Below are positions 22,826-29,143 of a stretch of 35,857 bases of DNA, piece after piece. A model generated the notes under the pieces. The model worked only from the letters and a program-made list of their open reading frames with translations. It had not been told where the DNA came from and ran no database searches. Origin of the DNA: Gammaproteobacteria bacterium (lineage in GTDB: Bacteria; Pseudomonadota; Gammaproteobacteria; GRL18); contig JALUZF010000070.1 in assembly GCA_027012135.1 (NCBI GenBank), forward strand, positions 1 to 35,857. The letters are read 5' to 3'. Numbering within the stretch: the stretch's first letter is position 1; the number at the start of each line of letters is the position of its first letter. Made by a program: the position numbers and the translations under genes.

Positions 22826-22847
22826 TTAAAAGTTTGCATTATCTGAT

Positions 22848-22976
22848 CGTGCCTGACTGCAGGTACTGTCTTTCCGGGGACACTCAAGTACATCCATGTA
22901 TCGTTTTATGAAAACATCCATGTTTTCATAAACCCCGTAAACACAGCACCTGCAGCCAGTCACTCTACGGTGCTCT
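22848..22976. repeat. 129-bp dispersed palindromic element, copy 1
   Basis: Gap-free match to 27427-27555, with 12 differences over 129 positions by my count (about 91% identity). The element is a large dyad: an outer arm of about 30 bp (22850-22879 against 22933-22962, ending in CGGGG/CCCCG; five mismatches) encloses two small hairpins, TACAT-CC-ATGTA and ATGAAAACAT-CC-ATGTTTTCAT. It fills most of the 211-bp gatA-gatB spacer. No convincing gene is inside. It resembles REP/MITE-like intergenic palindromes; mobility is not shown. Confidence 0.85.
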
Positions 22977-23036
22977 GAGTTATGCTGATTAGAAATAACA
23001 GAATTAAATAAAACCAGAAAAAGGTAAAAAATTATT

Positions 23037-27294: not shown

Positions 27295-27426
27295 TTATAT
27301 CTTTTACTATTATAAAAAAGGGTTGAAAATGGCTGCTAAAAGCCATAGAAATCTTTACTTTATAAAACTCTGAGTTAGAATGACATAATATAGCTTTTGA
27401 AATTGTAACTATTCAGCGTACCTGGC

Positions 27427-27555
27427 CGTGATTGTCTGCAGGTACTGTATTTCCGGGGACGCTCAAGTACATCCATGTATCGCTTTACGAAAACATCCAT
27501 GTTTTCATAAACCCCGTAAATACAGTACCTACAGCCAATCACTCTACTGTGCTCT
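27427..27555. repeat. 129-bp dispersed palindromic element, copy 2
   Basis: Same orientation and length as 22848-22976. The outer arms pair better here: 27429-27458 with 27512-27541, only three mismatches in 30. In particular the arm GGTACTGTATTT pairs perfectly with AAATACAGTACC, whereas copy 1 has two mispairs at the corresponding positions. Inner hairpins TACAT-CC-ATGTA and GAAAACAT-CC-ATGTTTTC are intact. Immediately downstream is the adk promoter. Confidence 0.85.
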
Positions 27556-27575
27556 AATTGAAGCTGAGTAGTTAC

Positions 27576-27603
27576 TTGAAATTTGTAACAAACCGGTTAT
27601 AAC
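27576..27603 (+). promoter_or_regulatory. Candidate sigma70 promoter of adk
   Basis: TTGAAA (27576-27581), 16-bp spacer, TATAAC (27598-27603). It lies 31 bp before the adk ATG (27635), giving a short leader, and just after the palindromic repeat. Confidence 0.6.
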
Positions 27604-27634: not shown

Positions 27635-29143
27635 ATGAGAATTGTTTTATTAGGCGCTCCAGGATCTGGTAAAGGTACACAGGCAAAATTACTGGTTGAA
27701 AAATACGGTATCCCGCAAATATCAACCGGTGACTTACTCAGGGCTGCAGTTAGAGATGAAACGGAATATGGTATAAAGGCTAAAGAAGCCATGGAGGCTG
27801 GAGAGCTGGTTTCAGATGAAATTGTGCTGGGTATTATAGAAGAGCGCCTTAAAGAACCGGATGCCTTATACGGCTTTATTCTGGACGGTTTTCCAAGAAA
27901 TATTCCCCAGGCTGAAGCGCTGGATAAAATGTTAAATTCTATTTACCAGCCCCTGGAAAAAACTATTCTTATTTATGTTGATTCAGATGATCTGATGCGC
28001 CGTTTAACGGGCCGAAGAACCTGTGCAGACTGTGGTCAAATGTATAATATCTATACCAATCCGCCCATGCTTTCCGATGTCTGTGACAAATGCGGCGGCA
28101 AACTTATTCAGCGTGCGGATGATAATGAAGATACTATCCGTCATCGCCTTAAAGTCTACAGTTCTCAAACAGAGCCGTTAATTTCCTATTATAAACAGCA
28201 AAGCAAAAATGTGGCGATTGATGGTACCGGCACAGTAGAAGAAATTTTTGAACGTATTACTAAAGTACTGGAACCTCTGGTTAAACCACGACTGGAAGAT
28301 AAATCTCAGGCAGAGGTTATTGAAGCTGAACCGGTAGAAGAAATTAAAGAAGAAACTACTGTGATAGAGAAGAAAGACAGGAAAAAAATAACCACTAAGA
28401 AGAAGGCTGTAAGTAAGAAGAAATCTGTTACTAAGAAAAAGGCAGCAAGCAAGAAGAAAGCAGCCTCCAAGAAGAAGGTCGTAAGTAAGAAAAAAGCGAC
28501 CAGCAAGAAGAAGGCAGTAAGCAAGAAGAAAGTAGCCACTAAGAAAAAGGTTGCAAGCAAGAAAAAAGTAGCGACTAAGAAGAAGGCTGCAAGCAAGAAA
28601 AAAGTAGCCACTAAGAAGAAGACAGTAAGTAAGAAAAAAGTAGCTGCTAAGAAAAAGGCAGTAAGTAAGAAAAAAGTAGCTGTTAAGAAAAAGGCAGTAA
28701 GTAAGAAGAAAGTTGCCACTAAGAAGAAGGCGGTAAGCAAGAAAAAAGTAGCGGCTAAGAAAAAAGTGGTAAGTAAGAAGAAAGTAGCGACTAAGAAGAA
28801 GGCGGTAAGCAAGAAAAAAGTAGCTGCTAAGAAGAAGGCGGTAAGCAAGAAAAAAGTAGCCACTAAGAAAAAGGCGGTAAGTAAGAAAAAAGTAGCTGCT
28901 AGGAAAAAGGTGGTAAGCAAGAAGAAAGCAGCCACTAAGAAAAAGGTGGTAAGCAAGAAAAAAGTAGCCACTAAGAAAAAGTCGGTAAGTAAGAAAAAAA
29001 TGGCCGCTAAGAAAAAGGCGATAAGCAAGAAAAAAGTAGTGGCTAAGAAAAAGGCCGTAAATAAAACGAAAGCCGTCACTAAGAAAAAAGCAGTAACTAA
29101 AAAGAAGACTGCATTTAGAAAAAAATCTAAAAAGAAGAGGTAA
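27635..29143 (+). CDS. adk: Adenylate kinase fused to a lysine-rich histone-H1-like repeat tail
   Basis: Residues 1-214 are a complete adenylate kinase (ATP + AMP = 2 ADP): P-loop 'GAPGSGKGT' (7-15), 'STGDLLRAAV', 'FILDGFPRNIPQAEAL', 'LTGRRTC', and a zinc-type LID with C-x2-C-x16-C-x2-C (Cys130, 133, 150, 153). Normal Adk would stop here. An acidic linker (about 219-245, rich in Glu) leads into 39 consecutive hexapeptides of the form KKK-x-x-(S/T/A) (255-488) and a basic end 'KKKTAFRKKSKKKR'. The frame is continuous and ends at a strong terminator, so it is one gene as sequenced. Lysine/alanine/valine repeats of this kind occur in H1-like proteins such as AlgP and Hc1 and bind DNA, RNA or other polyanions; a tail on Adk is not something I recognise as standard. 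The role of the tail is unknown. Confidence 0.93.
   Translation: MRIVLLGAPGSGKGTQAKLLVEKYGIPQISTGDLLRAAVRDETEYGIKAKEAMEAGELVSDEIVLGIIEERLKEPDALYGFILDGFPRNIPQAEALDKMLNSIYQPLEKTILIYVDSDDLMRRLTGRRTCADCGQMYNIYTNPPMLSDVCDKCGGKLIQRADDNEDTIRHRLKVYSSQTEPLISYYKQQSKNVAIDGTGTVEEIFERITKVLEPLVKPRLEDKSQAEVIEAEPVEEIKEETTVIEKKDRKKITTKKKAVSKKKSVTKKKAASKKKAASKKKVVSKKKATSKKKAVSKKKVATKKKVASKKKVATKKKAASKKKVATKKKTVSKKKVAAKKKAVSKKKVAVKKKAVSKKKVATKKKAVSKKKVAAKKKVVSKKKVATKKKAVSKKKVAAKKKAVSKKKVATKKKAVSKKKVAARKKVVSKKKAATKKKVVSKKKVATKKKSVSKKKMAAKKKAISKKKVVAKKKAVNKTKAVTKKKAVTKKKTAFRKKSKKKR
28397..29098 (+). repeat. 18/36-bp coding tandem repeat (39 units of 18 bp)
   Basis: 39 in-frame 18-bp units code for the KKKxx(S/T/A) hexapeptides; many group as 36-bp pairs (KKKAVS-KKKVAT and KKKAVS-KKKVAA types). 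The coding strand is strongly purine-rich. In 36 of the first 37 units the first lysine codon is AAG (one unit has AGG), while the second and third vary between AAA and AAG. The array is prone to length variation and misassembly. Confidence 0.9.

Follow-up and report, generated by a model that had tools for sequence, protein, structure and literature searches.

What is the long palindromic sequence that lies between gatA and gatB, and does it act on the genes beside it? The window, by which we mean the whole stretch of 35,857 nucleotides of gammaproteobacterial DNA that was analysed, holds this sequence twice, at 22848-22976 in the gatA-gatB spacer (copy 1) and at 27427-27555 upstream of adk (copy 2). 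The initial annotation had described two gap-free copies of about 91% identity, each a long dyad enclosing two hairpins, and both descriptions were confirmed. An ungapped alignment places 117 identical bases and 12 mismatches over the 129 positions (90.7%), and the folds of both strands, compared with shuffled sequences, give in each copy a long dyad around two hairpins with CATCCATG cores. The predicted energies are -49.0 kcal/mol (plus strand) and -60.6 kcal/mol (minus strand) for copy 1 and -49.8 and -60.8 kcal/mol for copy 2; z-scores over the four folds (two copies, two strands) range from -7.5 to -10.1, with none of 200 shuffles equally stable in any fold, which bears out the large structure that had been proposed for the gatA-gatB spacer. 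The arms of copy 2, 31 nt long, are 90% complementary.

The repeat is dispersed and its presence varies between relatives

A BLAST search with copy 1 finds 57 matches in its own genome, so the repeat is not due to chance, and a core profile identifies at least 45 distinct cores there, a lower bound that comes from the part of the matched loci to which the profile was applied. Among 57 genomes searched with copy 1, matches occur in 20, all in one family: all 6 genomes of the genus, the own genome among them, and 14 of 16 genomes of the sister genus g4 have matches; none of 2 genomes from two further genera of the family and none of 33 from other families of the class do. A search of a plasmid collection in distant mode returned no match.

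We compared orthologous gatA-gatB spacers, as the initial annotation had suggested, and found that among the 17 of 24 family genomes in which the spacer was assessable the core is present in 6 and absent in 11. The occupied spacers do not all hold the same insertion: the cores of G000 and G003 apparently derive from one insertion, G001 and G005 carry two other elements in opposite directions, and G009 and G021 carry yet another element with similar right flanks, the arms of which have diverged yet are still complementary by eye. A restriction to two copies together with an unvarying presence among close relatives had been expected to speak against a dispersed mobile repeat; neither was found, and that part of the earlier interpretation stands.

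Copy 2 has empty sites as well. Nine of the 24 loci upstream of adk, the window's own among them, were inspected, and in two, from genomes of the same genus (G001 and G003), the insert is missing and the flanks can be aligned by eye. The insert follows a block that is conserved across the family, ACTTTACTTTATAAAACTCTGAGTTAGAATGACATAATA, and precedes the adk start, which places copy 2 probably in the adk leader. The block itself (window 27340-27396) is promoter-like, with copy 2 inserted just after it, and is probably the adk promoter.

The annotated 129 bp form the inner part of a longer element

The repeat is real, but the 129 bp are not its unit. When the copies were compared together with their flanks, similarity was seen to run outward to GTAACTATTCAGTGTA...TACACTGAATAGTTAC, directly outside which 8 bases are repeated; since these ends and the duplication fall outside 27427-27555, the annotated interval is only the interior of a longer element. 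The features assigned in the window are as follows.

22826..22999 (approximate), minus strand: copy 1 of the MITE, between gatA and gatB, with GGA on the minus strand; ends set by reference to copy 2 and to the G003 insertion, apparently its orthologue
22875..22938, minus strand: TwoAYGGAY-like core of copy 1, two hairpins; core profile match, with the RF01731 match over 22842-22970
22906..22931, minus strand: hairpin 1 of copy 1, with a stem of 11 bp and UGGA at the loop of the minus-strand RNA; from sequence and fold
22889..22900, minus strand: hairpin 2 of copy 1, ANGGAN-type loop UACAUGGAUGUA in minus-strand RNA; from sequence, fold and loop conservation
27397..27404, no strand: left target-site duplication TTGAAATT of copy 2; not present as a pair where G001 and G003 lack the insert
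27405..27575, minus strand: copy 2 of the MITE, 171 bp long and upstream of adk, with GGA on the minus strand; end repeats with 15/16 and 12/16 matches, duplication 8/8
27454..27517, minus strand: TwoAYGGAY-like core of copy 2; core profile match
27576..27583, no strand: right target-site duplication TTGAAATT flanking copy 2

The element ends are 16-20 bp long (GTAACTATTCAGTGTA), those of copy 2 being of the GTAACTATTCAG type, and the end pattern matches 69 times compared with 2 for a control pattern. From the own-genome loci examined, we assembled a systematic set of 51 end-bounded elements of 62-252 bp, a few of which, for example at 239-252 bp, probably result from ends that were wrongly paired. 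For the 50 elements with both flanks, an 8-bp target duplication is perfect in 14 and matches in at least 7 of 8 positions in 24, whereas mismatched pairs, the left flank of one element with the right flank of another, give 0.7%; exact duplications of other lengths occur in 0 to 3 of the 50 per length, and no such length stands out. Copy 1 is not among the systematically detected elements: it has degenerate terminal repeats, which is why its ends are approximate, and no clear target duplication; it is a worn relative and may be a relic.

Size forms range from 62 to 218 bp, with forms of ∼170 bp like the window copies, deletion forms of ∼160 bp, minimal forms of 62-74 bp, and a form of ∼217 bp with one additional hairpin and a third GGA (CACNNGGATAAG). 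A second family, of 140-173 bp, has identical GTAAC ends and 8-bp duplications around a different interior that lacks the GGA core (L155, L156, L157, L160, L162, L163 and L150:3860-4032); core-less elements with these ends of any size make up 16 of the 51. Terminal inverted repeats, a duplication of fixed length, many copies with empty sites, and the lack of a transposase of its own (the longest stop-free stretch in either window copy is 57 codons) all describe a miniature inverted-repeat transposable element (MITE), and we are nearly certain that the family is a non-autonomous MITE of the IS66 type.

IS66-family elements with matching ends occur in related genomes

A search of the own assembly turned up no IS66 transposase, which counts against the IS66 link. 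Matches to PF03050 occur in 13 of the 24 family genomes, and we examined 30 loci in these. One, in a genome of the same genus (L194 in G005), is an IS66-family element of 1731 bp with ends GTAACTGCTCAGCGTAATTT...AAATTACGCTGAGCAGTTAC that match those of the MITE; it encodes one transposase of 483 aa (PF03050, E 2.5e-41; NF033517, E 2.1e-81), the sole transposase frame among its frames of at least 100 aa, and its target duplication cannot be read because the contig stops one base past the element. In the sister genus, L175 (G017) is an element of 1721 bp with matching ends, a perfect 8-base duplication ATAAAATG and a frame of 472 aa that is 72% identical to the L194 transposase. L176 (G014) is a broken insertion sequence with matching ends and a broken frame; its lack of a duplication also counts against the link. 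Ends of the IS66 family begin with GTAA, and the partner elements presumably resemble the ISBst12 subgroup of the family. As judged from these ends, an IS66-type transposase would mobilise the MITE. The 8-bp duplication is as described for ISPpa5a and ISPpa7 in the parts of PMC3281130 consulted, but the partner elements, at ∼1.7 kb, are smaller than the 2.7-2.8 kb in the table of that paper and differ in having, in L194, the single transposase frame.

A RAYT-type transposase, which had been put forward as a possible partner, finds no counterpart here. The sole Y1 transposase found in the own genome (C76:28701) has neither a core nor a matching end in its 3.3-kb locus, and we found no link to REP elements, which are paired with a Y1 transposase with matching ends. 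We also rejected an autonomous candidate in the own genome, C242:2161-5031, where outward end motifs lie 2.9 kb apart; the interval contains an ordinary-looking frame of 116 aa, which we take to be HIT-like, a frame of 718 aa and two separate small MITEs. As a separate observation, one g4 genome (G015, 4.9 Mb in about 10 contigs) has 68 IS66 transposase matches, many of them partial or with stops.

The cargo resembles the TwoAYGGAY RNA

At the Rfam cut-offs, the whole window gives no match. At a relaxed threshold, copy 1 gives on its minus strand a full-length match to RF01731 (TwoAYGGAY); its 32 bits (E 0.0012) fall short of the 43-bit cut-off, and copy 2 (L004) has no RF01731 match at cut-off; the window copies are therefore not filed as members of RF01731. 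Two of 20 loci scanned do have matches at cut-off, a sister copy in the own genome (L009, 44.7 bits) and L040 (53.2 and 43.9 bits), and 18 have none. The structure that defines TwoAYGGAY, a longer closed stem around two hairpins that have AYGGAY-type loops, is present, on the minus strand in the window copies. Across the class, RF01731 matches are found in 18 of 274 genomes sampled, 13 of them over the cut-off, and several genomes have matches in many places. TwoAYGGAY was listed in 2010 as a probable RNA, probably not cis-regulatory and without an assigned role (PMC2864571), and in 2014 was proposed to bind CsrA (PMC4333381); the parts of the TwoAYGGAY literature consulted mention no role as cargo of a mobile element, in which the present copies differ.

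The pairing is maintained as copies diverge. In an alignment of 40 copies, drawn from loci L001-L057 after 16 had been dropped by hand (truncated copies, forms with insertions or deletions, weak matches) and with L049 giving no match at the limit, 41 predicted pairs are supported, 31 of them by at least one compensated double change. The median self-complementarity of the arms is 0.83 in the own genome, 0.88 in the genus and 0.83 in g4, and arm identity from copy to copy is 0.81, 0.69 and 0.44, respectively (0.29 for random 24-mers); core identity is 0.94, 0.91 and 0.82. Template switching during replication corrects palindromes, and such correction could account for part of the arm pairing.

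The wobble pairs lean toward one strand: with the structure of the GGA strand there are 79 G-U compared with 14 A-C pairs, and with the structure of the other strand the skew falls to 36 versus 22 in the same direction. We rejected the difference in folding energy as an argument for which strand is the RNA, since shuffled sequences show most of the advantage of the GGA strand (-5.3, compared with -7.1 observed), which reflects composition.

The hairpin loops are of the type bound by CsrA

RsmE recognises an ANGGAN loop, with contacts to the A and the GGA while the N are free (PMC7652899, consulted in part). We counted departures from the majority base in 112 short cores of 140. Over the six positions A,N,G,G,A,N of the hairpin 2 loop, these number 0,16,0,0,0,25 in 70 genus copies and 0,9,0,1,0,7 in 42 g4 copies (Fisher P values of 3e-22 and 1e-7, respectively, for copies that share descent and so are not independent). 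Over A,N,G,G,A of hairpin 1, they number 1,10,3,0,0 in the genus (where 5 to 8 copies are gapped) and 0,9,1,1,1 in g4. Both ANGGAN loops are present in 99 of the 112 cores by a test at fixed offsets, which overlooks loops in deletion forms; in five own-genome cores that it scored as loop-less, hairpin 1 is deleted and loop 2 is intact in the alignment. A tally of distinct sequences beside the loops reads the same fixed offsets and was set aside for that reason.

The two GGA hairpins lie ∼24 nt apart within the long outer stem. Of the 112 cores, 6 contain the exact CsrA SELEX consensus, which is RUACARGGAUGU in the parts of PMC7652899 consulted; 41 contain RUACANGGAUGU and 76 contain ACANGGA twice. 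Most of the SELEX ligands described there have at most 4 contiguous pairs, and the 11-bp stem of hairpin 1 counts against CsrA binding in this respect. A csrA gene is present in 22 of 24 family genomes, once in the own genome, where the translation holds a VHREEI segment expected to contain R44, a residue whose role is given in PMC7652899. The cargo module is TwoAYGGAY-like and, in our judgement, probably CsrA-binding.

Like small RNAs of the CsrB/RsmZ type, the element has GGA in hairpin loops at more than one site; the difference is that here there are dispersed mobile copies with two loops each, and there one sRNA gene with many. RsmZ (RF00166) gave no match over cut-off and one below it in the 24 family genomes, a result that says little on the presence of a Csr sRNA since neither E. 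coli nor Pseudomonas was among the control genomes that were matched.

The core is associated with more than one carrier

With IS66-type ends scored at no more than 3 mismatches in 12 within 90 nt, both ends flank 31 of 45 own-genome cores; the counts are 28 of 50 for the remaining genomes of the genus and 18 of 45 for g4. The g4 genomes are split: in G010 and G015 at least one end is found at 22 of 22 cores, and in nine others (G008, G012, G013, G014, G016, G018, G019, G021 and G022) ends are found at 0 of 16. In other families of the class, only one of 40 loci has an end-like 12-mer near the TwoAYGGAY copy, and on one side only. These counts indicate that one and the same core is carried by elements of more than one kind.

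Two further observations concern the surroundings of cores. A TwoAYGGAY copy in G208 (L268 (L223), 165-393) stands between different inverted ends (CTGCTGTCCYGTTAACTT), of which a second copy (L267) has only the left. In g4 genomes, seven pairs of cores in opposite directions lie less than 400 bp apart with the GGA strands all diverging (L040, L041, L042, L043, L045, L058 and L349); similar pairs were seen by eye in the gatA-gatB spacer of G001/G005 and at L254 and L255.

Gene context and strand

Core-bearing MITEs are rarer in divergent gaps than core-less MITEs with the same ends, in small numbers. Among elements with a duplication of at least 5/8, 3 of 21 core-bearing MITEs lie in divergent gaps compared with 6 of 9 core-less ones (P = 0.008); without the duplication filter the counts are 3 of 27 and 7 of 11 (P = 0.002). 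Of all 140 cores, 77 lie between co-directional genes, and where two genes stand in tandem, the GGA strand lies in the sense direction at 48 cores and antisense at 29 (P = 0.04; 19 to 9 in the own genome, P = 0.09). These tests drop edge and distant cases (29 of 140 cores in the tandem-pair test, 13 of 51 elements in the divergent-gap test) and use simple open frames as gene calls, with frames below 150 aa that overlap an element ignored in the core-context count; no core lies inside a frame longer than 150 aa. An orientation count of 16 to 4, obtained for end-bounded elements with a looser gene caller, is superseded by the 48 to 29.

At both gatA-gatB and adk, the sense transcript carries the UCCA strand and the GGA strand is antisense, so any effect of the window copies is expected to be confined to transcripts that run the opposite way. 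For the gatAB mRNA, copy 1 is a stable stem without GGA loops. The initial annotation had suggested that the structure may affect the processing of this mRNA; such an effect is possible, but this is the least supported part of that interpretation because the strand likely to be functional is antisense to gatA-gatB.

Alternative explanations and implications

We think it probable that the repeat is an IS66-type MITE that carries a TwoAYGGAY-like structured RNA as cargo, with paired hairpins for CsrA. An IS66-type transposase acting on the shared ends would move the MITE; where the GGA strand is transcribed, the hairpin pair would bind a CsrA dimer, a bound copy would serve as a cis CsrA handle on its transcript, and the copies together would titrate CsrA. 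Against this explanation count, besides the long stem of hairpin 1, the position of both window copies under the Rfam cut-off, the 18 of 20 loci without a match, the antisense GGA strand at both sites and the weakness of the sense bias in tandem pairs. All of the evidence for mobility would fit equally a purely selfish IS66-type MITE, in which the interior is a structural passenger with hairpins that shield element or host from passing transcription, the loop sequence is a founder effect after recent amplification and CsrA has no part. The spread of core-less MITEs with the same ends (16 of 51), the weak orientation bias and the likeness of the own-genome copies (core 0.94, arms 0.81) agree with such a selfish element. 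However, a founder effect should not leave both N of ANGGAN free with the A and GGA fixed, the core is conserved across two genera (identity 0.82 in g4) while the arms drop to 0.44, and the same core occurs without IS66-type ends (0 of 16 cores in nine g4 genomes, and in other families of the class); we therefore regard an element with no CsrA role as unlikely.

We regard it as more improbable still that the repeat is chiefly an element of mRNA processing or stability like Correia or ERIC, in which RNase III cuts the stem or an RNase E site is exposed and neighbouring genes such as gatA and gatB are uncoupled. The very stable fold on both strands and the 77 of 140 cores that lie between co-directional genes speak for such an element, and PMC10969869 describes how transcripts with Correia elements are cut by RNase III and reports an RNase E effect for ERIC. 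By that description, rather than by alignment, ERIC and Correia are also alike in being short intergenic MITEs with strongly folding transcripts; they differ in that the consulted parts of PMC10969869 mention no CsrA-type cargo (the words CsrA and IS66 occur 0 times there). Processing alone leaves unexplained the fixed A and GGA in the loops and the lean of the wobble pairs to one strand, and it does not exclude the TwoAYGGAY-like cargo on an IS66-type MITE, with which it is compatible.

We found no earlier report of a TwoAYGGAY-like cargo on a MITE in the open-licence literature searched; the one paper there that names both CsrA and MITEs does not connect the two. With TwoAYGGAY as cargo of a recognisable mobile element, the empty sites and the core-less sister MITEs provide natural controls, and the CsrA proposal becomes directly testable. 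It also suggests how transposition could rewire a post-transcriptional regulon. As a tentative extension, which we hold to be rather doubtful, the dozens of paired CsrA-binding hairpins per genome might form a CsrA network spread by transposons, at once a distributed sponge and a source of new CsrA-controlled transcripts, with TwoAYGGAY elsewhere in the gammaproteobacteria as the same cargo on other carriers.

A separate observation concerns adk itself: its frame in the window, 502 aa in all, runs into a long Lys/Ala-rich tail of 18-bp repeats (28270-29143), and the open frames of its orthologues across the family range from 211 to 619 aa.
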